A stretch of DNA of 55,101 nucleotides from an uncultured Lentisphaerota bacterium. GTDB taxonomy: Bacteria; Verrucomicrobiota; Kiritimatiellia; CAIQIC01. Positions 20,041 through 50,649 of the stretch are shown one piece after another (the first letter of the stretch is position 1; each line of letters starts with the position of its first letter). The notes below the pieces were generated by a model, which saw only the letters and a program-made list of their open reading frames with translations, was not told the origin of the DNA and searched no databases. The position numbers and the translations under genes are program-made. The DNA lies in the NCBI GenBank assembly GCA_903889245.1, contig CAISWQ010000079.1, positions 64,876-119,976 on the forward strand. Reading direction: 5' to 3'.

Positions 20041-20109
20041 AGGTCAAGAATGGATAGATGGAGGTCAAGATTGGCGCTTCCCCAGCGGAGCGGCGGCAGG
20101 TAGCGTGCG
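20041..20109 (+). promoter_or_regulatory. Fucosidase-regulon promoter block, copy 1
   Basis: Two direct half sites, AGGTCAAGAATGG at 20041 and AGGTCAAGATTGG at 20062, are 21 bp apart. They are followed by CGCTT, 19 variable bases and GGTAGCGTGCG. The TAGCGT hexamer starts 60 bp from the block start, as in the other four copies. No -35 box is evident, as expected for an activator-dependent promoter. It heads GH16 (20144) and the GH29 behind it. Confidence 0.8.
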
Positions 20110-20143
20110 TCCCGGTGTGTCTGCCGGGGAAAAAGGAACCTGC

Positions 20144-21415
20144 ATGAAGAAGCAGATGAGCATGGTGTTGCTGGGCGCAGGCGTGCTGCTGGCGACGACA
20201 TCCGGTGTAGGCGTGGCCGGCGTGCCGGCGCCCTCGCTGCCGCCCGGCGGCGCGGATAAATGGGAGCTGACGTGGAGCGAAGAGTTCGACGGCCCCGACG
20301 CGGCCTTGACCAACACGTGGGTTTCGCAGAATGGGCCGAGCGGCCACATCCTGTGCAGCCGGTGGCGCGAGAATGCGGTGGTGACCAACGGTCTGCTGCG
20401 CCTCGTGGCGCGCAAGGAAAAACGCGGCGGGCAGGAATGGACGGCGGGGAGCATTTGGACGAAGCAGGGCTTCCAATACGGCTATTTCGAGTGCCGCTAT
20501 AAATACGCCGGTGCGGAAGCGCTGAATAATTCCTTCTGGCTCATGCCCACGAGCAAGGTGCCCGAAGGGCAGAAGCACTTCGAACTGGATATCAACGAGG
20601 GCCACTTCCCCAACAAGCTCAACACCAACATCCACAACCACTCCGACCGCACCAAGGTCAATGGCAAGTTCACGCATCCCACCGCGTCGCGCAGCTTCAA
20701 CTTTGGCGTGCGGCCCGATGTGACCATCCAGCTCGAAACTCCCATCACGACCCGCCGGCTCCGCTTCTCGTCCCACCACGGCAGCTATGCGCACCTCGGC
20801 GAGTTCCGCATCTATAACGTCAATCCCGCCGGTTACCCCGGCGCGCTCTCCGCGACTGCCGACAAGGACAAGCCCGGCCTCGTCAACTTCGCGCGCGAAG
20901 CCGACACCAAGATCAGCACGAGTGGCTTTCTGAAGGCCGCGGACGACACCTCGAAGAATCTCCTCGACGGCCGCATCGAGACGCGGTGGACCTCGCAGAA
21001 GGAAGGCGAGAAGTGGGTGGAGTTCGAGTTTGCCGACCAGCGCACCCTCGGCTGCATCCAGTTTCTCAACGGATATGGCAAGCCGGGCGACTGGAAGGGC
21101 CTGCTCGATAATTACCGCGTGGCCTATCACGACGGCACCCAGTGGGTCGAGATGGCCAAGTTCGATGTCAAGGAAGGTACCTTCAACTTCGCCCGCGAAT
21201 TCCACATCTTTGGCCTCGACTGGACCGAGCAGGCGCTGGTGTTTTATCTCGACGGCAAGGAACTGCGTCGCGAGAAAAATAATTTCTGCTTCAGCCCCGC
21301 GCCGGTGTGGTTGAGCCTCGCGGTCATCAAGTGGGCCGGACCGGTCACCGATGCCATAGACGGCCAGGCCATGGAAGTGGACTACGTGCGGATTTATCAA
21401 AGGAAAGGGCCCTGA
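20144..21415 (+). CDS. Secreted GH16 hydrolase with a discoidin-like domain inserted in the catalytic domain
   Basis: 423 residues with a signal peptide. The N-terminal half of a GH16 fold (LTWSEEFDGPDAALTNTW, YGYFECRYKYAGAEALNNSFWLM) carries the catalytic motif HFELDINEGH (Glu ~147, Asp ~149, Glu ~152). Around residues 190-340 a discoidin-like segment interrupts it (DDTSKNLLDGRIETRWTS, WVEFEFADQRTLGCIQFLNGY). The GH16 fold then resumes with REFHIFGLDWTEQALVFYLDG and ends AMEVDYVRIYQ. Probably an endo-acting beta-glycanase with an internal binding module. The ATG at 20144 is supported by AAAAGGAA and follows promoter block 1; it is 5 nt upstream-coupled to the GH29 gene. Confidence 0.88.
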   Translation: MKKQMSMVLLGAGVLLATTSGVGVAGVPAPSLPPGGADKWELTWSEEFDGPDAALTNTWVSQNGPSGHILCSRWRENAVVTNGLLRLVARKEKRGGQEWTAGSIWTKQGFQYGYFECRYKYAGAEALNNSFWLMPTSKVPEGQKHFELDINEGHFPNKLNTNIHNHSDRTKVNGKFTHPTASRSFNFGVRPDVTIQLETPITTRRLRFSSHHGSYAHLGEFRIYNVNPAGYPGALSATADKDKPGLVNFAREADTKISTSGFLKAADDTSKNLLDGRIETRWTSQKEGEKWVEFEFADQRTLGCIQFLNGYGKPGDWKGLLDNYRVAYHDGTQWVEMAKFDVKEGTFNFAREFHIFGLDWTEQALVFYLDGKELRREKNNFCFSPAPVWLSLAVIKWAGPVTDAIDGQAMEVDYVRIYQRKGP

Positions 21416-21419
21416 CATC

Positions 21420-23204
21420 ATGAAGCTAACCAACCGTTCTCCTGTCGCGGCGCCGGGCCGCGTGCTGCTCGCACTCCTGTGCGGCGCGGGGCTGTGGGGT
21501 GTTCGCGTCGCTGCTGCGGCCAAGCCCAAGGACGCGCCGGCGGAAGGCGTGACGGTCGAGGCCGAGGCGGGGGCCGCCGGCAAGGAAACACCCGAACAGC
21601 GCGACGCGCGCATGGCGTGGTGGCGCGACGCGAAGTTCGGCCTCTTCCTCCACTGGGGCGTCTATGCCGTGCCTGCCGGCAAATATGGCAGCGAGACCAA
21701 CTACGGCGAGTGGATCATGCGCAGCGCCACGATCCCGGTCGCCACCTACCGCGAGTTCGCTGCGCAGTTCAACCCGGTGAAATATGATCCCATGCGCTGG
21801 GCGCAGCTCGCGCAGGACGCGGGCATGAAGTACATCGTCATCACCAGCAAGCATCACGATGGCTTCGCGCTCTATCCCTCCGCCGCAAGCAAGTGGAACA
21901 TCGCCGACGCGACGCCCTACAAGAAAGACCTGCTCGGCCCGCTCGTCAGCGCCGCGCACGACGCGGGGCTGAAGATCGGCTTCTACTACTCGCAGGCGCA
22001 GGACTGGAACAATCCCGGCGGTGCGAAGAGCGGCTTCAAGGAGGGCGAAGGCTGGGACGCGGCGCACAAGGGCGACTACGATGCCTACCTGAAAAAAGTT
22101 GCCGAGCCGCAGGTGCGTGAGCTGCTGACGCGCTACCCGATCGACATCCTTTGGTGGGACACGCCGATGTACATGGACGCCAAACGCATCGCGCCGTTCG
22201 CCGCGCTGCTGGGGTTGCGCCCCGGCCTCGTCACCAACAACCGGCTTGGCGGCAGCTTTGGCGGCGACACCGCGACGCCGGAGCAGTTCGTGCCCGTCAC
22301 CGGCTACAAGGGCGACTGGGAAACCTGCATGACGATGAACCGGCACTGGGGCTATAACGCCTACGATCAGGACTGGAAATCGTCCGCCGATCTCATCCGC
22401 AAGCTGGCCGATATCTGCGCGAAGGGCGGCAACTTTCTGCTCAACATCGGCCCAACCGCCGAGGGCGAGTTCCCGCCGGCGTGCGTCGAGCGGCTGCGCG
22501 ACATGGGCCGCTGGCTGCGCGTCAATGGCGCGGCGATCTACGGCACGCGCGCCGGTCCGTTTGTGCAGCTTTCGTGGGGCACCGCGACGCGCAAGGGCGG
22601 TAAACTTTTCCTGCACGTCTTCGATTGGCCGGCGGACGGCAAGCTGAAGGTGCCGTTGAAGAACGAGGCGAAGAGCGCCGCGCTGCTCGTCGCGCCGGAG
22701 AAACCGCTGGCCGTCACGCGCGAGAGCGAACGGCTGGTCATCAGCGTGCCGCCGGCCGCGCCGGATGCCGTGGACTCCGTCGTCGTGCTGGAACTCGAAG
22801 GTGAGCCGGTGACGCTGCCGCTGCCGACGGTCGGCGCGCAGGCCAAGGCCTCGGCCGAGCAGAAGGGCAGCGAGGCGGCGAACGTCTTCGACGGCACCAG
22901 CGCCAAGCGCTGGCGCGCGCCCGCCAACGTGAAGTCGGCGACGCTCGAAATCGCGCTTGCCCAGCCCGCGACCATCGCCGGCTTTGGCCTCGATGAACCC
23001 GACGTCTGGCCGCGCATGCGCCAGGCGTACACGCTGGAGGTCGCCGAGGGCGAGGGCTGGCGCAAGCTCGCGGGCGGCCCGACCGATGGTCACGGCCTGA
23101 AGAAAAACCTGACGCCGGTGACCGCGCAGAAGTTCCGGCTGACGATGACCTGCGAAAAGGGCGCGCCCGGCGTCGCCGAGCTGCAGCTCTATCGCGCGGA
23201 GTGA
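21420..23204 (+). CDS. Secreted GH29 alpha-L-fucosidase with C-terminal discoidin-like domain
   Basis: 594 residues with a signal-type N-terminus. GH29 motifs: MAWWRDAKFGLFLHWGVYA, MKYIVITSKHHDGFALY, LKIGFYYSQAQDWNNPGG, and PIDILWWDTPMY with the nucleophile Asp ~247. WETCMTMNRHWGYN and GGNFLLNIGPTAEGEFP follow. The C-terminal ~130 residues (SEAANVFDGTSAKRWRAP) resemble an F5/8 type C module. GH29 releases alpha-L-fucose with retention. It lies 4 nt after the GH16 stop and belongs to the unit driven by promoter block 1. Confidence 0.95.
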   Translation: MKLTNRSPVAAPGRVLLALLCGAGLWGVRVAAAAKPKDAPAEGVTVEAEAGAAGKETPEQRDARMAWWRDAKFGLFLHWGVYAVPAGKYGSETNYGEWIMRSATIPVATYREFAAQFNPVKYDPMRWAQLAQDAGMKYIVITSKHHDGFALYPSAASKWNIADATPYKKDLLGPLVSAAHDAGLKIGFYYSQAQDWNNPGGAKSGFKEGEGWDAAHKGDYDAYLKKVAEPQVRELLTRYPIDILWWDTPMYMDAKRIAPFAALLGLRPGLVTNNRLGGSFGGDTATPEQFVPVTGYKGDWETCMTMNRHWGYNAYDQDWKSSADLIRKLADICAKGGNFLLNIGPTAEGEFPPACVERLRDMGRWLRVNGAAIYGTRAGPFVQLSWGTATRKGGKLFLHVFDWPADGKLKVPLKNEAKSAALLVAPEKPLAVTRESERLVISVPPAAPDAVDSVVVLELEGEPVTLPLPTVGAQAKASAEQKGSEAANVFDGTSAKRWRAPANVKSATLEIALAQPATIAGFGLDEPDVWPRMRQAYTLEVAEGEGWRKLAGGPTDGHGLKKNLTPVTAQKFRLTMTCEKGAPGVAELQLYRAE

Positions 23205-23217
23205 CCTTGGCAGGAAG

Positions 23218-23245
23218 CCGGCCACGACGGAGCGTGGCCCTCCAC
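23218..23245. repeat. 28-bp dispersed repeat with GGCCACG/CGTGGCC hairpin
   Basis: These 28 bp are the exact reverse complement of 17244-17271. The stem 23220-23226/23233-23239 has a 6-nt loop. It fills most of the 55-bp gap before the SGNH lipoprotein and lies directly before its ribosome-binding site, so it should be transcribed in the leader. Confidence 0.85.
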
Positions 23246-23259
23246 ATAGGAAGGGGAAG

Positions 23260-24177
23260 ATGAAGCTCATGAAGAAACTGTTCGTGGTGGGGTTGCTCGG
23301 GCTGCTGGCGGGCTGCGCGACACCGCCGGCGGCAACGCCGGGCGTGGAGGCACTCGCCGGCCGGCGGATCATCGTGCTCGGCGATAGCATCACGCAGGGC
23401 GGGGGCTATATCAGCTTCATCTCCTACTATCTCAACCGGCTCCATCCGGGGAAAAACTTCGACATCTACCCGCTGGGCCTTTCCAGCGAGACGCTCTCCG
23501 GCTTGAGCGAAGAGGGACACGCCGGCGGGAAGTTCCCGCGCCCGTGCCTGTTCGAGCGGCTTGGGCGCGTGCTGGAGAAAGCCAGGCCGGAGATCGTCTT
23601 CGCCTGCTACGGCATGAACGATGGCATCTATCAGCCGCTGGATGATGCGCGCTTCGCCGCCTTCAAAAGCGGCGTCACCAAGTTGATTGAACAGTGCCAG
23701 GCCGCCGGCGTGCGGGACATTTTCCTCGTCACTCCGCCGATTTTCGATGCGCAGACCAGACCGGGCGAATTCAACTATGACTCCGTCCTGACCGCCTACG
23801 CCGCTTGGGAAATGTCGTTGAAGCTGGAAAGCGTCCACGTGATTGACCTGCACACGGCGATGCGCCAGGCGCGCGACGCGCGGGCGGAGATATTCTCCCG
23901 GGACCACATTCATCCCGGCGAGGAAGGTCATCTGCTGATGGCGCGGACGATCCTCGCCGCGCTCGGCGTGCAGGTGCCCGACGAACCGCTGGCGACGCTC
24001 AAGGCCGATCCGCTTTATAAGCAGGCGGATCTGCTGCGCCGCCACCGCGCCAGCCGCTGGATGCAGCACATTGGCTACACCCGAGAAAAAACCGTCGCCC
24101 CGCAACCGCTCGGCGACGCCGAAAAAGAGGCGGCGGAGATGCAGGCGAAGATTGACGTGCTCCGCAGGAAAAAATGA
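23260..24177 (+). CDS. SGNH/GDSL-type hydrolase lipoprotein (carbohydrate esterase-like)
   Basis: 305 residues with a lipoprotein signal (LLGLLAGC, lipobox Cys ~20), so anchored in a membrane. SGNH blocks are present: block I IIVLGDSITQGGG with the nucleophilic Ser, block II Gly in LGLSSET, block III ACYGMNDG, and block V FSRDHIHPGEEGH with Asp and His. Such enzymes often remove acetyl groups from polysaccharides; the substrate is unproven. The ribosome-binding site AGGAAGGGGAAG supports the ATG at 23260. It follows the GH29 gene by 55 bp, and palindrome array E separates it from the GH43 trio. Confidence 0.88.
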   Translation: MKLMKKLFVVGLLGLLAGCATPPAATPGVEALAGRRIIVLGDSITQGGGYISFISYYLNRLHPGKNFDIYPLGLSSETLSGLSEEGHAGGKFPRPCLFERLGRVLEKARPEIVFACYGMNDGIYQPLDDARFAAFKSGVTKLIEQCQAAGVRDIFLVTPPIFDAQTRPGEFNYDSVLTAYAAWEMSLKLESVHVIDLHTAMRQARDARAEIFSRDHIHPGEEGHLLMARTILAALGVQVPDEPLATLKADPLYKQADLLRRHRASRWMQHIGYTREKTVAPQPLGDAEKEAAEMQAKIDVLRRKK

Positions 24178-24205
24178 GCCGGGCATCGTAATGGCATGGC
24201 GGGAT

Positions 24206-24251
24206 TTCCAAGCCTTGGAAAAACATCCGGGAAAAGTTCCAAGGTTGGGAA
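24206..24251. repeat. TTCCAANNNTTGGAA array E, two units, 31-bp period
   Basis: Units start at 24206 (perfect) and 24237 (right arm TTGGGAA). They lie between the SGNH lipoprotein and the first GH43 gene and end about 17 bp before its ATG. Confidence 0.85.
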
Positions 24252-24267
24252 CTGAATAAAGGGAAGC

Positions 24268-25884
24268 ATGAAGAAAAAGCGTGGGTGGGCGATCGGTGCT
24301 GGATGGTTTGCGTCGCAGTTGTGTGGCGGCCTGCTGATGGCAGCCGGTGTGCCGCATGCGCCGGCGGCGTGGGGTGACCAGGGCGACGGGACTTTCCGGA
24401 ATCCCGTCCTGCCGGCGGATTACAGCGACGTGGATGCGATCCGCGTCGGCGCGGATTATTTTGCGATCTCGTCCACGATGCAGTTCTCGCCGGGCATGGT
24501 GGTGTTGCAGTCGCAGGATCTGGTGAACTGGCGGATTGCCGGGCACGTCGTGGACGATGTCTCGCGCCTCTCGCCGGAGATGAACTGGGACCGGATGAAC
24601 CGCTATGGCCGCGGCGTCTGGGCGGGCGCCATCCGTCATCACGCCGGAAAATTCTGGGTCTACTTCGGCACGCCGGACGAAGGCTATTTCATGAGCACGG
24701 CGACGAATGCGGCCGGACCGTGGTCGCCGCTCACGCAAGTCATGAAAGCCGCCGGTTGGGACGACTGCTGTCCGTTCTGGGACGACGACGGGCAAGGCTA
24801 TCTGATCGGCTCGTGTTTCAAGGAGCACTACAAGATTCATCTCTTCAAGCTGACCGCCGACGGGAAGCAACTGGTGGAAGGCTTCGATCATGTGCTGCAT
24901 CAGGGGCAGGGGCGCGAGGCGAACAAGCTCTATAAATGGAACGGGCTCTATTACCACTTCTTCAGCGAGGTGAACCGGGAAGGCCGCGTGACGATGATGG
25001 GCCGCGCGCGGAACATCACCGGGCCTTATGAATATCGCCAGTTGAATCACGTGAATCCGCGCGTGGACCGCGAGCCGAACCAGGGCGGCCTTGTACAGAC
25101 GGAGAAAGGCGATTGGTGGTTCGTCACGCATCAGGGCACCGGCGCCTATGAAGGACGGGCGCTGTGTCTCTTGCCGGTGACGTGGCGCGACGGCTGGCCC
25201 ATCATCGGCGAGGTGGGCGCGGACGGTCTCGGCAACATGGTGTGGCAGGCCCAGAAACCCATCGCGGGTTTGCCGGTGCTGCTGCCGCAGATGAGCGACG
25301 GGTTCGCGTCGCGCACACTCGGCGCGCAGTGGGAGTGGAACCATCAGCCACGCGCGGATAAGTGGTCGCTCGTCGAGCGGCCCGGCTGGTTGCGCCTGTA
25401 CGCGTTCCAGCCGCTGCAGCGCGGTAATCTGCTCAAGGCCGGCAACACCCTGACGCAGCGGCTCATGGGCACCGGCGGCGGCGAAGTGACGGTCCTGCTC
25501 GACGTCTCCCGCATGGCCGATGGGCAGCGCGCGGGGCTTTGCCACTTCGGCAAGCACTATGGCTGGATCGGCGTGACGCAGACCGGCGGCGTCCGGCGCA
25601 TCACCTATTCGGCGAACGGCCGCGAGACGTGCGGAGTGGTGGTGGATGCAGCGGAGGTCTGGCTGCGCTCGCTCATCTCCGCGGACGGCACCTGCACGTG
25701 GGCGCTCAGTTTTGACGGCCGGAGCTTCACTCCGTTTGGCGAGCGCTACACGTTGGAGTGGGCTTTTTATCGCGGCGACCGCATCGGCCTCTTCTCCTTC
25801 AACAACGACGCCGACACCGGCCAAGCCGACTTTGCCGGGTTCCGCTACGACATCAACCGCGCGAAAGGTATGCCTACGAAATGA
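24268..25884 (+). CDS. Secreted GH43 glycoside hydrolase with C-terminal beta-sandwich
   Basis: 538 residues with an N-terminal signal region. The five-bladed propeller starts FRNPVLPADYSDVDAIRVG (catalytic base Asp region); WDDCCPFWDDDGQGYLIG carries the pKa-modulating Asp and GQGREANKLYKWNGLYYHFF the general-acid Glu. Residues ~345-535 form a beta-sandwich as in two-domain GH43 enzymes of the xylosidase/arabinofuranosidase groups. AAGGGA precedes the ATG. Its stop overlaps the next start (ATGA), so the three propeller genes are translationally coupled. Confidence 0.9.
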   Translation: MKKKRGWAIGAGWFASQLCGGLLMAAGVPHAPAAWGDQGDGTFRNPVLPADYSDVDAIRVGADYFAISSTMQFSPGMVVLQSQDLVNWRIAGHVVDDVSRLSPEMNWDRMNRYGRGVWAGAIRHHAGKFWVYFGTPDEGYFMSTATNAAGPWSPLTQVMKAAGWDDCCPFWDDDGQGYLIGSCFKEHYKIHLFKLTADGKQLVEGFDHVLHQGQGREANKLYKWNGLYYHFFSEVNREGRVTMMGRARNITGPYEYRQLNHVNPRVDREPNQGGLVQTEKGDWWFVTHQGTGAYEGRALCLLPVTWRDGWPIIGEVGADGLGNMVWQAQKPIAGLPVLLPQMSDGFASRTLGAQWEWNHQPRADKWSLVERPGWLRLYAFQPLQRGNLLKAGNTLTQRLMGTGGGEVTVLLDVSRMADGQRAGLCHFGKHYGWIGVTQTGGVRRITYSANGRETCGVVVDAAEVWLRSLISADGTCTWALSFDGRSFTPFGERYTLEWAFYRGDRIGLFSFNNDADTGQADFAGFRYDINRAKGMPTK

Positions 25885-26924
25885 ACAGATACGCTCGAAG
25901 AAAATGGCTGTGTCTGGCCGTGCTGGGCGGTCTCGCCGTTGCGGCTGGCGCGCAGAGCAACAACGATGAGGTGCTGCTGCTCACCTATTTCCGCGACAAC
26001 GGCAAGGATGGCGTCCATCTCGCCACGAGCACAGACCGCGTACATTTCGCCCCGCTCAACGACGACAAGGCGGTCTTCGCGCCGCCCGCGTGGCCTGGAC
26101 AGAACTTGACGCGCGACGCCTCGATTCTTTTTCGCGACGGCACGTTTCGCATGGTCTGGACCAGCGGCTGGAAGGGACGGATTTTCGGTTATGCCGATTC
26201 CGCCGATCTCGTCCACTGGTCCGCGCCGCGGCAGATCAAGCCGTTCCCCGTGAACCTGCCGGCAGACGATCAGCCGGACAATATCTGGGCGCCGGAAATC
26301 CATTTCGATCCGCTGAAGCAGGACTATTTCATCCTCTTCGCCAGCACCACGCCGCGCGAGCGGAACGATGCCGATAACAGCAACAACAACGGGAAAAAGG
26401 GCTCGCAGTACGACAACCGGATCTACATCACGCGCACCAAAGACTTTCGCACCTTCACCGACGCGAAGCTGTTCTTCGACCGCGACTTCGCCTCGATTGA
26501 CGCGGTAATGCGGCGCGACGAAGAGCACCGGCGCTGGGTGATGGTGATCAAGTGTTCGCGCGACGAAAATTTGAAGGTCATGCCGGGCCGTAATCTCTGG
26601 CTCGCCTTCACGGGCCTGGACATGGACCAGCTGGATTTCTCGCCGCTCGAAGGGCCGATTGCGGGCAATCACTCTCCGATGTTCAGCAGTCCCGAGCCAC
26701 GCAAGGCGATGGCAGAAGGCCCGTCGCTCCTGCGGCTGGACGGCCGGTGGTTGCTCGTATGGGACGAGCCCGCCGGCGGCGGCATGCAACTCGCGACCTC
26801 GCCGGACCTCAAAACGTGGACGCACAACAAATCCGCCACGTTCCCGCGCGCAGCGCAGCACGGCACGCTCTTCCTCGCGCCGCGATCTGCTGTCGGTTGG
26901 TTCTACGCCAAGGAAACGCCATGA
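25881..26924 (+). CDS. Secreted GH43-superfamily propeller hydrolase
   Basis: 347 residues with a signal peptide (RKWLCLAVLGGLAVAAGAQ). Propeller repeats such as ASILFRDGTFRMVWTSGW, DNIWAPEIHFDPLKQDYFILFAS and GPSLLRLDGRWLLVWDEPAGG resemble the GH43/beta-fructosidase superfamily; the APEIHFD motif holds a conserved acidic residue. Exact family and specificity are unclear. The ATG at 25881 overlaps the previous stop by 4 bp; the longer in-frame start at 25758 lies inside the neighbour and gives no signal peptide. Confidence 0.78.
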   Translation: MNRYARRKWLCLAVLGGLAVAAGAQSNNDEVLLLTYFRDNGKDGVHLATSTDRVHFAPLNDDKAVFAPPAWPGQNLTRDASILFRDGTFRMVWTSGWKGRIFGYADSADLVHWSAPRQIKPFPVNLPADDQPDNIWAPEIHFDPLKQDYFILFASTTPRERNDADNSNNNGKKGSQYDNRIYITRTKDFRTFTDAKLFFDRDFASIDAVMRRDEEHRRWVMVIKCSRDENLKVMPGRNLWLAFTGLDMDQLDFSPLEGPIAGNHSPMFSSPEPRKAMAEGPSLLRLDGRWLLVWDEPAGGGMQLATSPDLKTWTHNKSATFPRAAQHGTLFLAPRSAVGWFYAKETP

Positions 26925-27997: not shown

Positions 27998-28028
27998 AGG
28001 TCGCGGGGTCCAAGGCCGTGAACACACC

Positions 28029-28097
28029 AGGTCAACAATGGATAGCTGGAGGTCAAGATTGGCGCTTTCCCGGGGCGGGGTAGCCGGTTAGTTTGCG
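28029..28097 (+). promoter_or_regulatory. Fucosidase-regulon promoter block, copy 2
   Basis: Half sites AGGTCAACAATGG at 28029 and AGGTCAAGATTGG at 28050 are 21 bp apart, then CGCTT, 19 bases and GTTAGTTTGCG, with TAGTTT at 28089 (60 bp from the block start). It heads the DUF5703/GH29 gene pair. A decayed GTCCAAGGCCGTGAA lies 21 bp upstream. Confidence 0.8.
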
Positions 28098-32586: not shown

Positions 32587-32655
32587 AGGTCAAGATTGGA
32601 TAGCTAGAGGTCAAGATTGGGGCTTCCCCGCGATGGGGTGGGCGGCTAAGGTGCG
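32587..32655 (+). promoter_or_regulatory. Fucosidase-regulon promoter block, copy 3
   Basis: Half sites AGGTCAAGATTGG at 32587 and again at 32608 (21 bp apart), GGCTT, 19 bases and GCTAAGGTGCG, with TAAGGT at 32647 (60 bp from the block start). It lies 34 bp before the ATG of the 1224-residue protein. Confidence 0.8.
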
Positions 32656-36363: not shown

Positions 36364-36400
36364 CGCAACACCACTACACAAGCCCGGTGCGGCTATGGTT

Positions 36401-36447: not shown

Positions 36448-36461
36448 GACTGGCGCAGGGC

Positions 36462-36530: not shown

Positions 36531-36566
36531 CGCCGGTCGGCGCAACCGGGAATCTAGGAGCAACAC

Positions 36567-40603: not shown

Positions 40604-40617
40604 ATGGAGCGCCGCGC

Positions 40618-42303: not shown

Positions 42304-42344
42304 AGCCCTCCAGGATTAAGCAGCCCGAAAATAAGGCGGCAACC

Positions 42345-45300
42345 ATGAAGCATAGCCTCATGCTCGGAGCGCTGGCGTTCGCGCTGGCGGCGGAGGGCGG
42401 CACGGTGGGGCGTACCGACCTGGAAACGCTGAAAACACCGGTCTATCAAGCCGCCGGCACGGCGTTTGTGCGCCACAACGGAGACCGGTTCAACAACCGG
42501 CCGCTGTACTGCAATCAGATCAGCGCGATCGTGCTCGCTGGCGACCGGCCGCTGGTGCGGTTCGGCACCGGCACGGTGCTGCACGGCACGTTTATGGCGG
42601 CGTTGGTGCGTGGCGACCGGGCGAAGTGGTTGCACGATTTCTCCGACATCACCGCGAAGTATCGCGCGGATCATATGGAATGGCTGCTCAAGGATGCCGG
42701 CTTCGGCGACACGACCCTGACGCTCGATGCGGTACCGGCAGCCAAGGGCGCGGGGATGGCGTTGCGGCTGCGGCTGGAGAACATACAGGCCGGTGACCGG
42801 TTGATCTGGGTTTGCGGCGGAACGGTCCGGCAGCCGAAGAGCATGTTGGATGTGTGGGATGTGACGACGGCCGGGCGCGAGAAGATATTGGCGAAAGGCT
42901 TCGCACCGGACGATTGCCTTGAAGATCGGGTGAAGATCGCTGGTGACCGGTTCATGGTCGAGATCAACGACGGCAAGCCCGTCATCATGACCGGCCAGTG
43001 CAGCGCGGCTTCCCAAATGTCTGTCGCGGATGCGTCGGCATGGAGCGATCCGCTGAAGTTGTTGGCGAGCGCCGGCCAGCAGCGGCCGCTGGCGTGTGGC
43101 GTGGTGGAGTTGGCCAAACAGCAGGAAATTTGTTGGGCGGTGCGCGGTGGCCGGCCCAGCCCGGAGCCGGCAGCCGCGGTGTTCGCGGCCGGGTTGCAGC
43201 GCGCGGAAGATATCGGGCGGAGGATCGTTGTGGATACGCCCGATGCGCAACTCAACGCGCTGGTCGGCGCTTCGAGCGCGGTGATGGATGGCGTGTTCCG
43301 CGACGGAATCTTCACGCACTCCGGGATGCGCTGGGGCGTGCCGCTGCTCGGTTGGCGCACGCTGTTCGGCGGCACGGCGTACGGCTGGCATGACCGGGTG
43401 CTGACGCAGGCGCGCACGTGCCTCGCAAAGCAGATCACCGCGTCCGACAAGATCAGCGCGAAGGCCGATGCGAAGACCGGTTTGAGCTGCCAGTCGCTTG
43501 ACTCGCGGTTGTTCGGGAAAGGCCGCGTGGCTCTTCATCATCCATGGCACTATGACATGCAGAGCCAGTTCTTCGATCAACTCATCCACGCGTGGCGCTG
43601 GACCGGCGACGCGGAACTGGAAAAGATTTTGCGTCCCGCGCTGGAACTGCATCTTGAATACATCCGCGACTGTTTTGATCCCGATGACGACGGCCTTTAC
43701 GAGAGCTACGCCAACACGTGGCCGACGGATGATCAGTGGTACAACGGTGGCGGCACCGCGGAGGAAACCGCCTACGCCTACACCGGTCACAAGGCTGCGC
43801 TTGAACTGGCACGCCGCGCTGGTGATAGCGCCGCCGTGAAACGCCACGAGGCCCGGCTGGCGAAAATCCAACGGAGCTTCATGGAGAAGCTGTGGATTCC
43901 ATCGAAGCAATATGTCGGCGCGTATGTCGAACAGGGCGGGCTGGGGCGGTTGCACGAGGACTGCTGGCTGTACGCGATCTTCTGCCCGATTGACGCCGGA
44001 ATGCTCGATACTGTGAAGGCCGCGCAAGCGCTGCACTACACCGAGTGGGGACTCGAACGCGAGCAGATGCCCTACGGTGGCGAGCGCGTCTGGCCATCGA
44101 ACTGGGTGCCGAGCATCTGGTCGTTGCGCGAGATGTGGCCCGGCGACAACTACCACCTCGCGCTCGCCTATTTCCAAACCGGCCTCGCCGATGACGGCTG
44201 GTCGGTGCTGCGCGGGACGTTTCCCCACATGGCGTTCTACGGCCCCGTGCCCGGCGATCTGGGCTATCCCTGCGGCGGGACCGACTTCAACGATTGCGCC
44301 AGCATGTTCTGTCGCGTGGTGGTCGAGGGACTGTTCGGCTACCGCCCGGATTATCCCAACCAGAGCGTGACCATCGCCCCGCAGTTCCCGGGTGACTGGA
44401 ACCGTGCCGCGATCACGACGCCGGATTTCTCGCTGAACTACCGGCAGGGCCGATACGAAGTCACTCTCGCCAAACCGGCCACCCTTCAGTTCCGGCTGCC
44501 GGTGCGAGTGGCGAACCTCAAGCGCGTGCTCGTCAACGGCCAGCCCGCCCAATACCGGCTCGAGCCTGCCTTCGGCTACGGCGCGCTGCTCGTGACGGTG
44601 CCGGCCTGCGCGAAGGCGGAGGTCGTTTTGGAAACCAGTGGCGACGTGGTCAACACTCCCGTGGTCGCCAAGACCGGCGAGAAACCGGAATTGGCGGTGG
44701 CCCAGTTGGAGGGCGCTGTGCCGCGCTACCAAGTCACGAAGGTCCGGCCGCTGCCGCCGCTGGTCAGCAAGCCCCCGCAGGTGCCGGCCGGCGCGAAATG
44801 GGCAACCCTCGACATGGCCGGCAGCTTCAATGGCGATGTCCGCACGATTTTCCAGCAGCAGTATCTCACGCCGCGTCCGAACACATGCTCGCTGCGGCTG
44901 GCGACGGACGGCTATTCCACCTGGCAGATGATGCTCAACCCGAAACACAAGCCGCCGGAGATCAAGCTCGATAAGCCCGGCGAACCGGTGATGACTCCGC
45001 AGGGCGTGCCCTTCGGCAAGATCGGCGCGGAAAAAAATATCGCGTTCACGTCGCTGTGGGATAACTGGCCCCGGCGCGTCAGCGTACCGGTGAACAAGGC
45101 CGGTGACGCGGTGTGGCTGCTGGTCTGCGGCTTCACGCCGCCGATGCAGGGCCGCATCGCCAATGCCGAATTGCGCTTCCGCTATGCCGATGGCGCGGAA
45201 GAAAAACTGGAACTGGTGCCGCCGCTCAACCTCTGGTCGCTCTGCCCGTTTGGCGGGGTGGACTATAACTACAAGCGCGATGGCTTCGCTCTGCCGCAGG

Positions 45301-45458
45301 AGCCGCCGCCGCAAGTGCAGCTCGGCCAAAACTGCCGCGCGATGGTCTATGGCTGGAAGCTCCGCCCCGGCGTTGCGCTCAAAGATGTCACGCTCGAAAC
45401 GCTCTCCCAGGAAGTCGTCATCGGCCTGATGGGTGTCAGCATCATGGGGCCAAGGTGA
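42345..45458 (+). CDS. Secreted DUF4450-domain glycosidase-like protein
   Basis: 1037 residues with a signal peptide from the ATG at 42345 (MKHSLMLGALAFALAAEG). An alternative ATG at 42300 overlaps the previous stop (ATGA) and would add 15 polar residues. The body matches DUF4450-type proteins: a beta-sandwich (NNRPLYCNQISAIVLAGDRP), then a six-hairpin alpha/alpha barrel with MRWGVPLLGWRTLFGGTAYGWHD, HHPWHYDMQSQFFDQLIHAW, DDDGLYESYANTWPTDDQW and GTAEETAYAY. C-terminal beta domains follow. Activity of the family is poorly defined; the operon (GH9-like, GH29, pectate lyase, GH29, GH43) argues for a pectic or fucosylated glycan. Confidence 0.82.
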   Translation: MKHSLMLGALAFALAAEGGTVGRTDLETLKTPVYQAAGTAFVRHNGDRFNNRPLYCNQISAIVLAGDRPLVRFGTGTVLHGTFMAALVRGDRAKWLHDFSDITAKYRADHMEWLLKDAGFGDTTLTLDAVPAAKGAGMALRLRLENIQAGDRLIWVCGGTVRQPKSMLDVWDVTTAGREKILAKGFAPDDCLEDRVKIAGDRFMVEINDGKPVIMTGQCSAASQMSVADASAWSDPLKLLASAGQQRPLACGVVELAKQQEICWAVRGGRPSPEPAAAVFAAGLQRAEDIGRRIVVDTPDAQLNALVGASSAVMDGVFRDGIFTHSGMRWGVPLLGWRTLFGGTAYGWHDRVLTQARTCLAKQITASDKISAKADAKTGLSCQSLDSRLFGKGRVALHHPWHYDMQSQFFDQLIHAWRWTGDAELEKILRPALELHLEYIRDCFDPDDDGLYESYANTWPTDDQWYNGGGTAEETAYAYTGHKAALELARRAGDSAAVKRHEARLAKIQRSFMEKLWIPSKQYVGAYVEQGGLGRLHEDCWLYAIFCPIDAGMLDTVKAAQALHYTEWGLEREQMPYGGERVWPSNWVPSIWSLREMWPGDNYHLALAYFQTGLADDGWSVLRGTFPHMAFYGPVPGDLGYPCGGTDFNDCASMFCRVVVEGLFGYRPDYPNQSVTIAPQFPGDWNRAAITTPDFSLNYRQGRYEVTLAKPATLQFRLPVRVANLKRVLVNGQPAQYRLEPAFGYGALLVTVPACAKAEVVLETSGDVVNTPVVAKTGEKPELAVAQLEGAVPRYQVTKVRPLPPLVSKPPQVPAGAKWATLDMAGSFNGDVRTIFQQQYLTPRPNTCSLRLATDGYSTWQMMLNPKHKPPEIKLDKPGEPVMTPQGVPFGKIGAEKNIAFTSLWDNWPRRVSVPVNKAGDAVWLLVCGFTPPMQGRIANAELRFRYADGAEEKLELVPPLNLWSLCPFGGVDYNYKRDGFALPQEPPPQVQLGQNCRAMVYGWKLRPGVALKDVTLETLSQEVVIGLMGVSIMGPR

Positions 45459-45462
45459 GCAA

Positions 45463-47154
45463 ATGAAAAAAATTATGCTGGCGGGTATCTCGCTTTTGGC
45501 CCTGCACGCTGCCGCGTCGCAGGAGGTGGAGAGCAACGGGCGCATGGCCTGGTGGCGCGAGGCGAAGTTCGGGATGTTCATCCACTGGGGGCTCTACTCC
45601 GCACTCGCCGGCAGCTACAACGGCAAGGAGATTGATAACAACGGCGAGTGGATCATGGACCGCGCGCTGATCCCGGTCGCCGCCTACGCGGCCTACGCCA
45701 AGGCTTTCAATCCCGTGCAATTCGACGCCGAGGAATGGGTCGGCATCGCGAAGCGCGCGGGGATGAAATACATCGTCATCACCGCGAAGCATCACGACGG
45801 GTTTGCGATGTACCCCTCGAAGGTCAGCGCGTTCAACCTGCATGACGCGACGCCGTTCAAGCGCGATCCGCTTGCGGAGTTGGCAGCGGCGTGCCGCAAG
45901 GCGGGGTTGCGGTTCGGGCTCTACTATTCGCAGGCGATGGACTGGCATCATCCCGGCGGGCAGCCGCCGAACCGCGGCTGGTGGGATGCCGCGCAGCATG
46001 GCGACATGACCAACTACATCAATACCATCGCCGCGCCGCAGGTGCGGGAAATTTGTTCCAGCTATGGACCGCTCGCGGAAATCTGGTGGGACATGCCGCG
46101 CAACATGACGCCGGAGTTCGCCGAGAAACTGCACGCTGTGGTACGCGAGTTGCAGCCGCAGGCGATCATGAACAACCGGCTCGGTGGCGGCATCAAGGGC
46201 GATATTGATACGCCGGAACAGTTCATTCCGTCCACCGGCGGCCCGGAAGGGCGTGACTGGGAAACGTGCATGACGATGAACAACACGTGGGGTTTCAAGC
46301 AGCAGGACACCGACTGGAAGAGCACCGCGGATTTGCTCCGCAAGCTGCTCGATATCTGCCATAAGGGCGGCAACTTCTTGCTCAACGTCGGGCCGACCGC
46401 CGAGGGTGTGATCCCGCCGGCGAGCGTCGAGCGACTCGCCGCCATCGGCGCGTGGCTGGAGAAGAATGGCGAGGCAGTCTATGGCACCACCGCCAGCCCG
46501 ATCCCGTTCCTCTCGTGGGGCCGCTCTACACGCAAGGGCAACGTGCTCTACCTGCACGTCTTTGACTGGCCCGCCAACGGCGAACTGCGCGTGCCGATGC
46601 AGGCACAGGTTACCGGCGCGTGCCTGCTCGCGCAGCCCAGCGATCCGCTGCAACACGAGCAGCGCGATGGCGCGGTGGTGGTTCATGTGCCGCGCGATCA
46701 GACCCATCCGTCTGATCCGTCGGATCAGCTGGCGCGCGTGATCAAGCTCACCATCGCGGGCGAGCCGGTGATCGCTCCGCCGCTGACACGCAACAAACCA
46801 GCGCAGGCTTCGTTCGGCGATACGGCCAAGGCGTTCGATGGCTCGGCGGGCCGGTCGTGGGAAGCGAAGAAGGGCGACAAAGCCGGCTGGCTCGAAGTGG
46901 ACCTCGGCGCGCCGACGGCTGTCGCGGCGATGGCCTTCGATGAAATGCATCGCGGCGCAGGTAAGCGCGGTCAGAAATTCCGGCTGCAGGTCAAAGCTGG
47001 TGACGCGTGGAAGGAAATCGTAACCGGCGCGACGAAGGGTTACGGCGTCACACAGACTTTCCCCCCGGTCACAGGGCAGGTTTTCCGTCTGGAAATTTTC
47101 GAGTCGAAGGACACCGCTGCCGTTGCCGAGTGGCAGCTCTACCGGCCGGAGTGA
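45463..47154 (+). CDS. Secreted GH29 alpha-L-fucosidase with C-terminal discoidin-like domain
   Basis: 563 residues with a signal peptide (MKKIMLAGISLLALHAAAS). Motifs: RMAWWREAKFGMFIHWGLYS, MKYIVITAKHHDGFAMYPSK, FGLYYSQAMDWHHPGG and LAEIWWDMPR (nucleophile Asp ~210); WETCMTMNNTWGFK and GGNFLLNVGPTAEGVIPP follow. The C-terminal discoidin-like part contains AKAFDGSAGRSWEAKKGD. It is closest in layout to the GH29 at 21420, so the two may be paralogues from duplication. AAGGTGA precedes the ATG, 4 nt after the DUF4450 stop. Confidence 0.95.
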   Translation: MKKIMLAGISLLALHAAASQEVESNGRMAWWREAKFGMFIHWGLYSALAGSYNGKEIDNNGEWIMDRALIPVAAYAAYAKAFNPVQFDAEEWVGIAKRAGMKYIVITAKHHDGFAMYPSKVSAFNLHDATPFKRDPLAELAAACRKAGLRFGLYYSQAMDWHHPGGQPPNRGWWDAAQHGDMTNYINTIAAPQVREICSSYGPLAEIWWDMPRNMTPEFAEKLHAVVRELQPQAIMNNRLGGGIKGDIDTPEQFIPSTGGPEGRDWETCMTMNNTWGFKQQDTDWKSTADLLRKLLDICHKGGNFLLNVGPTAEGVIPPASVERLAAIGAWLEKNGEAVYGTTASPIPFLSWGRSTRKGNVLYLHVFDWPANGELRVPMQAQVTGACLLAQPSDPLQHEQRDGAVVVHVPRDQTHPSDPSDQLARVIKLTIAGEPVIAPPLTRNKPAQASFGDTAKAFDGSAGRSWEAKKGDKAGWLEVDLGAPTAVAAMAFDEMHRGAGKRGQKFRLQVKAGDAWKEIVTGATKGYGVTQTFPPVTGQVFRLEIFESKDTAAVAEWQLYRPE

Positions 47155-47156
47155 AA

Positions 47157-48524
47157 ATGAAACCACTGCTGTTGTTGATCGCGGCGTGCCTCGCGGCGCG
47201 CGCGGGCGAACCAGGGCGCGAGCCGCACATGGGCAACCCCATCGTGCCGGGCTATTACGCCGACCCGAGCCTCGTGCAGTTTGCGGGGACGAACTATCTC
47301 TATGCGACGCTCGATCCGTGGGGCGACAAGACGCTCGGCTGCTGGGAGTCGGCGGATTTCAAGAACTGGACCTATCGCATTCTCAACTGGCCGACGAAGG
47401 ACGCGTGCCGGAGCAAGACCAGCGGCGGGGCCGCGGTCTGGGCGCCCTCGGTCGTGCGCGCGGCGAGCGGGAAATTCTTTATGTACGTCTCGGTCCACAA
47501 CGAGGTCTGGGTCGGGACGGCGGAGCATCCGCTCGGGCCGTGGCGCGACGCGAACGGCGGCCAGCCGCTCGTGCCTGGCAATTTCCGGCCGGGCTTCCAC
47601 ATGATTGATGCCGAGGGCTTCGTGGATGATGACGGCACCGGCTGGCTCTACTGGGGCTCCGGCCACGGCTGGAAAAACGGCAAATGCTGGGCCGTGCGGC
47701 TGAAGCCCGACATGGTCACGTTCGACGGCGAGGTGCACGACGTCACTCCCCCGCATTATTTCGAGGGGCCTCTCATGGTCAAGCGCGGCGGGCGCTACTT
47801 CCTGATGAACTCCACCGGCATCACGATCAAGGACAACTACCAGGTTCATTACGCCGTCGGCGCCAGCCCGCTCGGCCCGTTCACCGAGCCGACGAATCAT
47901 GCGATCCTCGTGACCGACAAGGCGCGCAACGTCATCAGCCCCGGCCACCACACGGTGTTCAGCAAGGATGGCCGCGACTACATCCTCTATCACCGCCACA
48001 GCATTCCGTTTGATCCCAAGTTCGTCGCCCGCCAGCTCTGCGTGGATGAAGTGAACTTCACCGCCGACGGCCGGATCGAGGTCGTGACGCCGACGCACAC
48101 CGGCCCGCCGCTGGTCCGCGACCGGCTCGCCGGCCGCGACGTGCTGCCGGCGACGGCGACCGCATCCAGCACGGCCGCGCCGCACTTCGCTGCTGCGTGC
48201 GCGCTCGATGACAACTACGCGACGCGCTGGAGCCCGGCGCGCGATGCAAAGGGCGCGTGGCTGCAACTCGACCTCGGCTCGGCGCGGACCTTCTCGCGGC
48301 AGGAGCTGCGCTTTGAATATGCGTGGAAGCCCCACCGCTTTGCGCTGGAGATTTCTGACGACGGCGCGCAGTGGCGGAAGCTCGCCGACCGCACGGAGCA
48401 ACCGGTGACCGGCTCGCCCGTCGTGATCGAGCAACCAGCCACCGCGCGCTATCTGCGCCTTGTTTTTCCCGCGGATATTCCCGGCAGCGCGGTCTCGGTC
48501 TTCGAGTGGCAGGTGTTCCGTTGA
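47157..48524 (+). CDS. Secreted GH43 glycoside hydrolase with C-terminal discoidin domain
   Basis: 455 residues with a signal peptide (MKPLLLLIAACLAARAG). GH43 features: GNPIVPGYYADPSLVQF (catalytic base Asp), MIDAEGFVDDDGTGWLYWGS (second Asp) and PPHYFEGPLMVKRGGRYFLM (general-acid Glu). Residues ~325-455 are F5/8 type C-like (ACALDDNYATRWSPARDAKG). Likely an exo-acting arabinofuranosidase, xylosidase or galactosidase. It starts 2 nt after the GH29 stop and closes the unit behind promoter block 4; hairpins at 48629-48656 follow. Confidence 0.9.
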   Translation: MKPLLLLIAACLAARAGEPGREPHMGNPIVPGYYADPSLVQFAGTNYLYATLDPWGDKTLGCWESADFKNWTYRILNWPTKDACRSKTSGGAAVWAPSVVRAASGKFFMYVSVHNEVWVGTAEHPLGPWRDANGGQPLVPGNFRPGFHMIDAEGFVDDDGTGWLYWGSGHGWKNGKCWAVRLKPDMVTFDGEVHDVTPPHYFEGPLMVKRGGRYFLMNSTGITIKDNYQVHYAVGASPLGPFTEPTNHAILVTDKARNVISPGHHTVFSKDGRDYILYHRHSIPFDPKFVARQLCVDEVNFTADGRIEVVTPTHTGPPLVRDRLAGRDVLPATATASSTAAPHFAAACALDDNYATRWSPARDAKGAWLQLDLGSARTFSRQELRFEYAWKPHRFALEISDDGAQWRKLADRTEQPVTGSPVVIEQPATARYLRLVFPADIPGSAVSVFEWQVFR

Positions 48525-48628
48525 GTGCTTCAAGCATCTGATGACGACGTTCATGGGTTGGAGCTACAGCGCCCGCACCATCTACCCCGCAACACAAACA
48601 AGGCTTATTTCCACGAGAATTTGTACAA

Positions 48629-48656
48629 AATCGCACACCTCTTGAGGTGTGCGATT
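48629..48656. terminator. Perfect 13-bp stem hairpin after the six-gene unit
   Basis: AATCGCACACCTC-tt-GAGGTGTGCGATT lies 105 bp after the GH43 stop and before the isomerase-like gene. No T-tract follows, so it may terminate, stabilise the 3' end, or belong to the leader of the next gene. The stretch 48525-48628 shows nothing recognisable. Confidence 0.45.
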
Positions 48657-48693
48657 GGGGTGGGGCGGTCTTGGAGATTGCCTGCGCCGGTGG

Positions 48694-48713
48694 GGTCCGG
48701 TATAAGCCGGACC
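48694..48713 (+). other. Hairpin GGTCCGG/CCGGACC in the leader of the isomerase-like gene
   Basis: A 7-bp stem with loop tataag, flanked by GGTCTTGG at 48667 and its complement CCAAGACC at 48732, so a nested stem could form around it just before the AAAGGA ribosome-binding site. A cis-acting RNA structure is possible; no known riboswitch was recognised. Confidence 0.35.
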
Positions 48714-48751
48714 ATCGGTAGGGAAAATCCGCCAAGACCAGAAAGGAACGA

Positions 48752-50311
48752 ATGCCGATGAAACACACAGCACATACTTGCCACTGTCACTGTTGCGCCG
48801 CGCACGGCATGAGCCGCCGCCACTTCCTCTACAGCGTCGGCGCCGCCACGGTCGCGGGCCTCGCCGCGCCGGTGTGGGCTGCCGAGGCGGCCAGCGGTTA
48901 CGCGCCACAGCGCCGCCCGCGCACGCGGCAGCCGCTCTGCGTCCAGCCGGTGCTGACCTACGATCTGCCCAAGCGCCGCGAGGCGACGAGCTGGCGCAAC
49001 TGGGGCGGCATCCAGACGGAGCAAGATGTGCAGGCCGAGCGGGAACGGCTCGCCAAGGAACTGAAGAAGATCGCCGACACCGCTGACTTTCCGCTGGAAC
49101 TCAAACCGCTGACGCCAGTGCGCACGCTGGAGCAGGCCGGTGAGATTGCGAAGGGCCGTCACGATGTGCTGCTGCTGTTCGCGGCGGGCGGCGGGGTCAA
49201 GCTGCTCGAGGCGCTGACCGTGGCGGGCAAGCATAACCTGATGTTCCTGCGTCACGATCCGGGGCCGGCCTATCTCTGGTATGAGATCGTCCATCCGCGT
49301 TTTCTGCGCAAGACGGTGGACGACTACGGCCAGCCCGGCTGGGACGTGAACGACGTGGTCGTGGATAGCTTCGCGGACCTCACCTGGCGGCTGCGCGCGC
49401 TCGGCGGACTGAAGAACACGCTGAACAAGCGCGTGGTCTGCATCGGCGGCGCAAGCGGGTGGGGCGCGGGCGGCCGCACGGCGCCGGCGCGCACGCAGGA
49501 ATTGTGGAAGATGGACTTGGTCAACTATCCCTACAAGGACCTCGCGCCGCGTATTGCCGCCGCGCGCCAGAACGCCGCGCTCGTCGCCGCGTGCGCCGCG
49601 GCAGCGGAGAAATATTTGAGCCCGTGGCGCGTCTCGCTGAAGACCACGCGCGAGTTCGTCAACAACGCCTTCGTGCTGACCGAGGTGTTCAAGGACGTCA
49701 TGGATGAGGTGCAGACCGATGCGTTCACGATCAACTCGTGCATGGGTACGATCATGGGCATGTCGCAGACCACAGCGTGTCTGCCGTTGAGCCTGCTCAA
49801 CGACGAGGGCTACCTCGCGTTCTGCGAGTCGGACTTCGTCGTGATCCCGTCCGGCATCCTGCTGCACTACATCTGCGGCCTGCCGGTCTTCCTCAATGAC
49901 CCGACGCTGCCGCACGACCGCGTTGTCACGCTCGCCCACTGCACCGCGCCGCGCAAGATGGACGGCAAGCGGAGCGAGCCGGTGAAGATCCTGACGCACT
50001 TCGAGTCCGACTACGGCGCGGCGCCGAAGGTCGAGATGCGGACCGGCCAGCTTTGCACCAACCTCGTGCCGGACTTCGCGAGCAAGAAGTGGGTCGGCTT
50101 TGCCGGGACGATCACCGGCAACCCGTTCCACGACATCTGCCGTTCGCAGATTGACGTGCAGATCCACGGCGACGCCGGCGCGCTCCTACGCGAGATGAAG
50201 GGCTTCCACTGGATGATGTCCTACGGCGATTACCTGCGTGAGACCGGCTACGCGCTGCAGAAGGTCGGCGTGGACTTCCTCAATGTCAGCGCCCCGCCGC
50301 CGGCGACGTGA
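48752..50311 (+). CDS. Tat-exported L-fucose isomerase-like protein
   Basis: 519 residues. A Cys/His-rich leader (HTCHCHCCAAH) precedes a twin-arginine motif SRRHFL and a hydrophobic stretch ending APVWAAEA. The C-terminal half (MGMSQTTACLPLSLLNDEG, AFCESDFVVIPSGILLHYICG, VVTLAHCTAPRKMDG) matches the L-fucose/L-arabinose isomerase-related group COG2407, including a CE pair and AHC in places where metal ligands sit in that group. Such enzymes are normally cytoplasmic; export through Tat is unusual and a true isomerase activity is unproven. AAGGA supports the ATG at 48752. It lies among fucosidases, upstream of GH95. Confidence 0.75.
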   Translation: MPMKHTAHTCHCHCCAAHGMSRRHFLYSVGAATVAGLAAPVWAAEAASGYAPQRRPRTRQPLCVQPVLTYDLPKRREATSWRNWGGIQTEQDVQAERERLAKELKKIADTADFPLELKPLTPVRTLEQAGEIAKGRHDVLLLFAAGGGVKLLEALTVAGKHNLMFLRHDPGPAYLWYEIVHPRFLRKTVDDYGQPGWDVNDVVVDSFADLTWRLRALGGLKNTLNKRVVCIGGASGWGAGGRTAPARTQELWKMDLVNYPYKDLAPRIAAARQNAALVAACAAAAEKYLSPWRVSLKTTREFVNNAFVLTEVFKDVMDEVQTDAFTINSCMGTIMGMSQTTACLPLSLLNDEGYLAFCESDFVVIPSGILLHYICGLPVFLNDPTLPHDRVVTLAHCTAPRKMDGKRSEPVKILTHFESDYGAAPKVEMRTGQLCTNLVPDFASKKWVGFAGTITGNPFHDICRSQIDVQIHGDAGALLREMKGFHWMMSYGDYLRETGYALQKVGVDFLNVSAPPPAT

Positions 50312-50530
50312 CATTGTTGAGGCCTCCTGAAAGCCGCTGTGCGTGCCGCATTTCCGGTTAACTGGGAGCGGCGGTTTTCCAACCGCCGCATGACCTACAT
50401 CCACGCGGCCTTGGCTGGTTCGGCGGGTGGTTTACCCATGTTGGGATAAGGTTTCATCGGCGGCTGGAAAGCCGCCGCCCCCAGTCAGCCGGACGGCACA
50501 AAACCGGGCGTGAGGTTTTGGCTGTCAAAG

Positions 50531-50564
50531 TGGAAGCCCCCGCGGTGAGCCGCGGGGGCTTCCA
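50531..50564. terminator. 15-bp perfect stem with TGAG loop
   Basis: Arms 50531-50545 and 50550-50564 are exact reverse complements and G+C-rich. It lies about 220 bp after the isomerase-like stop. There is no T-tract; it overlaps the start of the palindrome at 50560. Terminator or REP-like element. Confidence 0.45.
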
Positions 50565-50574
50565 ATCCTCGGAA
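50560..50574. repeat. Single degenerate TTCCAANNNTTGGAA palindrome H
   Basis: TTCCAATCCTCGGAA differs from the consensus at one position and ends 6 bp before promoter block 5. It is the third case in the window of this palindrome directly preceding a promoter block. Confidence 0.6.
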
Positions 50575-50580
50575 AGCGGC

Positions 50581-50649
50581 AGGTCAAGATTGGATAGCTG
50601 GAGGTCAAGATTGGCGCTTTGCTCCCCGCGCGAGAACGGCTAGGTTGCG
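50581..50649 (+). promoter_or_regulatory. Fucosidase-regulon promoter block, copy 5
   Basis: Half sites AGGTCAAGATTGG at 50581 and again at 50602 (21 bp apart), CGCTT, 19 bases and GCTAGGTTGCG, with TAGGTT at 50641. The ATG of GH95 is only 6 nt after the hexamer, so the transcript should be leaderless or nearly so if the hexamer is the -10. Confidence 0.82.

Follow-up and report, generated by a model that had tools for sequence, protein, structure and literature searches.

The DNA analysed here (the window) is a stretch of 55,101 nucleotides from an uncultured Lentisphaerota bacterium (assembly GCA_903889245.1, contig CAISWQ010000079.1), corresponding to C79:64876-119976 of genome G000 (5.26 Mb), in which five promoter blocks of one design stand in a cluster rich in glycoside hydrolase (GH) genes. 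These five blocks and four further copies elsewhere in the genome very probably serve one AraC-family regulator, P0001 (called FucR), as class-II-type activation sites, through which it would switch on nine fucose promoters together. Computation showed the sites with their spacing, a site beside the regulator gene itself, the co-occurrence of site and regulator, and the gene content.

All five window blocks lie on the forward strand and begin exactly where a preliminary description of the window had placed them, at 20041, 28029, 32587, 36462 and 50581. Block 1 (20041..20106) has half-sites at 20041-20058 and 20062-20079 and the hexamer TAGCGT at 20101-20106, and heads the 20144-27997 unit. Block 2 (28029..28094; half-sites 28029-28046 and 28050-28067, hexamer TAGTTT at 28089-28094) heads the 28133-32544 unit, and block 3 (32587..32652; half-sites 32587-32604 and 32608-32625, hexamer TAAGGT at 32647-32652) heads 32689-36363. 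The hexamer is TAGGTT in both block 4 (36462..36527; half-sites 36462-36479 and 36483-36500, hexamer 36522-36527), which heads the 36567-50311 run, and block 5 (50581..50646; half-sites 50581-50598 and 50602-50619, hexamer 50641-50646), which is followed by the GH95 start codon at 50653. Searched with up to three mismatches, the two-half-site pattern matched exactly five times in the window and never in 100 dinucleotide shuffles. The direct half-sites are 21 bp apart in 5/5 window blocks, as had been described, and in 9/9 of the genome.

The information shared over 21 blocks from three genomes is concentrated in GGTCAA..T.GATAG, GGTCAA..T.G...TT and TA...T, while bases 40-58 and the flanks carry little, in agreement with the 19 unconserved bases noted before. 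Each half-site contains two boxes about one turn apart, an arrangement that would suit the double helix-turn-helix (HTH) of one AraC-type subunit. The hexamer had been placed exactly 60 bp from the block start, which holds for 5/5 window blocks (TAnnnT at block positions 61-66), but across the genus the distance is exact in 18/21 blocks and off by one in two, and TAnnnT is absent in one. The promoters had also been described as lacking a -35; a G follows the TT in just 2/21 blocks, but TT itself is present at positions 38-39 in 21/21, where it would be the beginning of a -35 spaced 17 bp from the hexamer. We infer that TT 38-39 and TAnnnT are the -35 and -10, respectively, and with a transcription start assumed 7 nt after the hexamer, the half-site pair is centred at about -53. 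A promoter and terminator scan of 36000-55101 called no block as a promoter and found fewer terminators than in shuffles.

A whole-genome search with a pattern similar to that of the window (up to three mismatches) gave 12 matches, comprising the five window blocks, four further blocks and three poor ones, against 0 for the reversed control. With a sequence-only model built on the nine blocks (R1; 150 of the 1404 candidates in G000 were scored), the nine sites scored 61.6-75.9 bits and the next score was 21 bits. The genome-wide scan suggested in the preliminary description thus returned nine strong sites with a clear score gap, all (9/9) upstream of an open reading frame (ORF) in the correct orientation. 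Outside the window, block C79:44472 lies between the GH29 gene that it heads and the divergent AraC-family gene P0001; block C24:4573 heads a GH29 gene followed by a GH95-like gene; block C65:152867 heads a double-GH29 gene followed, as second gene, by L-fucose isomerase (1060.8 bits, cut-off 775); and block C33:9170 precedes a small ORF with TPR and ExbB genes after it. In 8/9 cases the block heads a fucosidase-containing unit or, as block 3 does, a gene within the fucosidase cluster, and one unit includes L-fucose isomerase; fucose is well supported as the sugar of the regulon. As had been claimed, a block stands at the head of each same-strand run that contains one of the four GH29 genes of the window (21420, 30838, ORF 38198 and 45433) or the GH95 gene (50653), and judging from gene spacing these runs are probably operons.

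The preliminary description had stated that the regulator is not in the window, and this was borne out: there are 14 HTH_18 matches in G000, and the sole one on C79 (C79:45167-45394) belongs outside the window, where P0001 (292 aa) is encoded at C79:44540-45418, 19.5 kb before it. With block C79:44472 between it and its divergent GH29 neighbour, P0001 is also the AraC gene with its own block that had been sought. It matches the double-HTH domain PF12833 (HTH_18) at 71.4 bits (cut-off 33.6) and the N-terminal ligand domain PF02311 (AraC_binding), typical of sugar-sensing members, at 42.1 bits (cut-off 21.1). It falls below the cut-off of all 25 named-regulator NCBIfam models listed, the best of which gave 47.3 bits against 350; among the equivalogs the scores were 37.4 bits against 208 for AraC, 37 against 288 for RhaS, 43.2 against 253 for MelR and 24.3 against 525 for RhaR. 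Judged by these domain tests P0001 is a member of the AraC family and, judged by the cut-offs, not an ortholog of AraC, RhaS, RhaR or MelR. The 12 matches to solved structures fall nearly all on the DNA-binding domain, with 9gfp matching weakly over residues 132-285. In named genomes the regulator matched two uncultured Lentisphaerae metagenome bins at 86-88% identity and an Oscillospiraceae bin at 22%.

Within the family, FucR orthologs were found in genomes G004 and G005 (89% and 86% identical), and in both a block lies between the FucR ortholog and a GH29 gene, as in G000, although this adjoining GH29 is just 61-62% identical to its G000 counterpart. With 150 candidates scored per genome, strong blocks were present in 3/3 family genomes with a FucR ortholog (nine in G000, seven in G004 and four in G005, plus one at 34.5 bits), and in 0/3 family genomes without one, including one in the same genus, at E <= 0.1. 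Six of the 12 blocks of G004 and G005 stand before genes whose orthologs in the G000 regulon are 80-90% identical; of the others, one heads a unit with the ortholog of the 30838 GH29 gene (91.5%), two head the GH29 genes beside the regulator, two another GH29 (~38%) and one nothing recognised. The headed genes partly differ from those of G000, with one G004 block directly before the ortholog of 24268 (GH43) and another before that of ORF 38198 (GH29).

Across the class, FucR homologs at E <= 1e-40 were detected in 49/288 genomes (61 matches). The first 41 of these matches were scanned for spacing, and after exclusion of two with too little upstream DNA, a GTCAA pair at 21 bp was found upstream of 19/39 AraC homologs exactly and of 31/39 with one mismatch, while any other GTCAA spacing from 8 to 60 reached at most 1/39 exact and 8/39 with one mismatch. 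In nearly all of these the best pair is directed away from the AraC gene, into the divergent promoter. Of the 12 other AraC genes of G000 itself, the five located by tblastn showed no 21-bp GTCAA pair (0/5). In a tree of 40 homologs and one outgroup (L079 and the other 20 matches stand outside it), the FucR clade comprises 18 rows with support 99/98. The divergent partner in this clade is GH29 in 7/18 and L-fucose isomerase in 7/18, two are truncated by contig ends, and two (G160 and G101) have neither within 3.8 kb; partners were assigned by Pfam (G000, L053, L054, L056, L058, L060, L061, L063, L065), by tblastn (L009, L010, L059) or by eye (L055, L057). On the same 21-bp frame, homologs further removed from the clade face aldo/keto reductase genes (confirmed in two cases) or epimerase-like genes (by eye).

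A second model (R2) was built from 11 clade sites outside the genus and scanned over the class with 16 candidates scored per genome, the 18 genomes whose homolog the tree places in the FucR clade being counted as clade genomes. R2 sites occurred in 22/288 genomes, that is, in 18/18 with a clade gene (7/7 held-out genomes among them) and in 4/270 others. The four held-out genomes outside the genus contain six sites, of which three head L-fucose isomerase, one a GH29 gene (30% identity) and two, both in G101, other ORFs. The four non-clade genomes are G063, G073, G215 and G092: in G063 and G073 the site stands before L-fucose isomerase (L118, L120; by eye), and in G073 and G215 it adjoins an AraC homolog, that of G073 being a fragment (44% over residues 8-182, with the site beside it) that may belong to the FucR clade. 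Seven R2 sites were found in G092, one of them before a GH95 gene (L117, by eye). Each of the 11 training genomes gave its single known site at E <= 0.01, a lower bound with 150 candidates scored per genome, and on this account the many-site regulon seems special to the genus of the window and perhaps G092. At the G092 sites (L117, L124-L129), a TTCCAA...TTGGAA-like palindrome was seen by eye after the 21-bp pair, near the expected -10.

The AraC-family activator proposed in the preliminary description is thus supported by the site geometry, by the regulator gene with its own block and by the co-occurrence of site and regulator, and binding and activation would proceed as follows. Two FucR subunits would occupy the two direct half-sites 21 bp, or two helical turns, apart, and in each half-site one HTH would read the GGTCAA box while the other reads the box about one turn on (GATAG in the first half-site and CGCTT in the second). 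The second half-site would abut or overlap a weak -35 and, because this -35 keeps only its TT, polymerase is proposed to need FucR in order to use the TAnnnT -10. In the presence of L-fucose, or a product of it, FucR would turn on the nine promoters, whose output would be the fucosidases (GH29, GH95) with their companion hydrolases and L-fucose isomerase.

This arrangement resembles Escherichia coli AraC at araBAD I1-I2, where likewise a protein with AraC_binding and HTH_18 domains is combined with a pair of direct half-sites of which the second reaches the -35. The available text of the review PMC7408454 places I1/I2 at a centre of -52.5 with partial overlap of the -35, against about -53 for the FucR blocks. 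The NCBIfam AraC model covers residues 47-285 of P0001, far under its cut-off, and the FucR system differs from araBAD in its half-site sequence, in its fucose genes and in having nine sites in one genome. RhaS and RhaR are AraC-family activators of rhamnose genes, a deoxyhexose pathway; in contrast to P0001, RhaS serves another sugar, and its model fits residues 194-290 only. In the accessible part of PMC3557285 an AraC-family protein is tied to rhamnose, and the regulator of the bacterial microcompartment (BMC) locus there is of the DeoR type. The known fucose regulators covered by the available portion of PMC12566272 are a DeoR-type activator in E. coli, a repressor in Bacteroides thetaiotaomicron and an IclR-type repressor in Campylobacter jejuni. 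FucR would share with the L-fucose regulators already bearing that name the control of fucose-use genes, and differs from them in belonging to the AraC family and in the many glycoside hydrolase genes of its regulon. No report of an AraC-family fucose regulator was found in the literature searched, which lacked most subscription papers; AraC occurs only in a reference in the accessible part of PMC5583593, and the main text of PMC6388578 has no occurrence of 'regulat', 'promoter' or 'sigma factor'.

Several observations weigh against regulation of fucose promoters by FucR-dependent activation. Activation as such is argued from geometry only. The genes after the C33 block (small ORF, TPR, ExbB) are not fucose genes, making it one poor fit of nine, and annotation downstream of the nine strong blocks shows no fuculokinase, aldolase or transporter gene, though no search was aimed at these. 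Block G005:C55:59333 has no TAnnnT, and 8/39 homologs lack the 21-bp GTCAA pair even at one mismatch. In G160 and G101 neither GH29 nor L-fucose isomerase lies within 3.8 kb around the regulator gene, and the site is at L-fucose isomerase instead of beside the regulator; 2/3 G101 sites head ORFs that resemble autotransporters (by eye). The Fisher p of 1.4e-11 for R2 ignores relatedness, and the seven held-out genomes fall in few genera.

Other explanations of the blocks have to be weighed against the same evidence. That the regulator and sites are as described, with FucR acting mainly by repression or looping that fucose relieves, is quite unlikely, even though AraC represses by looping without arabinose (in the available text of PMC4486848 and PMC7408454), repressors control fucose use in C. 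jejuni and B. thetaiotaomicron (in the accessible part of PMC12566272), and the window blocks are separated by 3.9-14.1 kb. Against it, a block consists of a single tandem pair that sits immediately before a weak -35 and touches it, the position taken by the activator sites of araBAD. At C38:76280 and C115:12119, two cases only, promoter halves without GTCAA show a more complete -35 (TTGCGC or TTGAGC) at the 17-bp spacing of the blocks (by eye); TTGAGC also occurs in one FucR block (G004 C119). If one or more related AraC paralogs, and not P0001 alone, read the sites, this would account for the diverged block adjoining the paralog at C3:32023-32871 (43% identical), with similar half-site sequences, and for the other diverged blocks, which head a GH29-like gene (C3:49112, by eye) and others. 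This reading is very unlikely, as the nine blocks score 61.6-75.9 bits and the diverged ones 16.7-21, the latter have GACAT in place of GATAG as box B, and the C3 paralog, next to an aldo/keto reductase gene, falls in a tree group of its own (100/100).

The preliminary description had spoken of a fucose/fucan regulon, of which the fucose part is well supported and the fucan part is not. A regulon for the degradation of sulfated algal fucan or fucoidan would suit the many GH29 genes and the GH95 gene, and two cultured Kiritimatiellales strains grow on fucoidan according to the available text of PMC6388578. However, 0/107 sulfatase matches in the genome are in the regulon: C79 and C33 have none, and on C24 and C65 the distance from the block to the nearest match is ~86 and ~91 kb, respectively. 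The companion enzymes are GH43, GH16-like and GH5-like, among families searched that did not include fucanases. Because the regulon is without sulfatases, its dedication to sulfated fucan is unlikely, and with no sulfatase match near the blocks, removal and use of fucose from unsulfated or already desulfated glycans would be its more fitting role. Lastly, the window copies are very alike, as recent duplications or a repeat element of no regulatory function would be. This is extremely improbable and was rejected in favour of functional constraint, as had been argued before, since little information is shared outside the boxes and hexamer; the nine blocks are also all upstream of ORFs in one orientation, the G004 and G005 clusters keep their blocks though the headed genes partly differ, and the sites are associated with the regulator class-wide.

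The units headed by the window blocks, annotated by Pfam, all lie on the forward strand. Unit 1 (20144..27997) encodes a GH16-like/F5_F8 protein (20144), GH29 (21420), an SGNH hydrolase (23260), GH43 (24268) and two GH43-like ORFs with uncertain starts (25758, 26747), and unit 2 (28133..32544) a DUF5703 protein with an F5/8 domain (28133) and GH29 (30838). Unit 3 (32689..36363) is a DUF6055/PA14/LamG protein. Unit 4 (36567..50311) contains an F5/8 protein (36567), GH29 (ORF 38198, true start probably near 38858), 40618, a DUF4450/GH116-like gene (42264), GH29 (45433), GH43 (47007) and 48752, which is preceded by a 228-bp gap and may be separate. Unit 5 (50653..54927) encodes GH95 (50653), a GNAT acetyltransferase (53012) and a GH5-like protein (53332). 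The hexamer is 36-39 nt from the start codon in the other four window blocks and 6 nt in block 5, where the GH95 ATG coincides with the predicted transcription start (50641-50655). Because the block 5 hexamer ends so close to the ATG, placing it on the predicted start, a leaderless GH95 mRNA is possible.

At the C33 block (L005:9170-14500), a small secreted-looking ORF is followed by TPR, an ORF without assignment, ExbB and an ExbD-like ORF (by eye), and a tie of the regulon to TonB-type uptake is possible. Diverged blocks on the 21-bp frame were seen at L044 (C3:32023-33208), beside the AraC paralog and its aldo/keto reductase gene, and at L045 (C3:49112), L047 (C43:28277) and L048 (C25:14584), which by eye head a GH29-like gene, a beta-helix-like protein and an ORF with no assigned family; these probably represent sister regulons. 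The matches C38:76280 (L046) and C115:12119 (L049) were rejected as regulon members, having the promoter half only and no GTCAA in the preceding 70 bp. Both show a promoter-like TTGCGC or TTGAGC, 17 bp and TAGCGT or TAGGCT, perhaps the general promoter shape of the organism, and L049 lies just before a sulfatase match. Many of the 107 sulfatase matches are packed on G000 contigs C26, C38, C44, C46, C103, C113 and C123, away from the fucose regulon. The palindrome TTCCAAnnnTTGGAA has 19 matches in the window (one mismatch allowed) against 0.02 expected, at 2383-2490, 6065, 13778-13855, 19919-20026, 24206-24251, 36401-36447, 40638-40684 and 50560. A count over 273,918 bp of the genome gave 115 copies, and the distance between neighbours is 31 bp in 33 cases and 32 bp in 23; the palindrome occurs within 150 bp upstream of blocks 1, 4 and 5 and of the C33 block, and not of the other five.

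Beyond the regulon itself, this AraC subfamily may, with somewhat less than even probability, present a readable and evolving code on a 21-bp, araBAD-like frame, in which one HTH and its GTCAA box are near-fixed and the other HTH and its box vary between paralogs. The HTH1 motif [YH][LIM]CRL[FY] is present in 17/18 clade members and 13/22 others, and the HTH2 motif NF[ST]R[AT]F in 18/18 and 0/22, with HFS[RH] in 21/22 of the others. A clean code is contradicted by the C3 paralog, in which HFSH goes together with GACAT, the box that the fucose clade has outside the genus, and the correlation between HTH2 and box is confounded with ancestry. In such a history the fucose member, with one detected site in most lineages examined, would have spread to up to nine promoters in the genus of the window, with a separate spread of a more distant homolog in G092.

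The lineage is uncultured and its named relatives carry the label Lentisphaerae; the analysis provides for it a regulator with a likely binding site, a regulon and an evolutionary history. It predicts a fucose activator from a family other than the DeoR and IclR families named for fucose in the available text of PMC12566272, and if the code described above is true, a local regulator becoming a global one could be watched.

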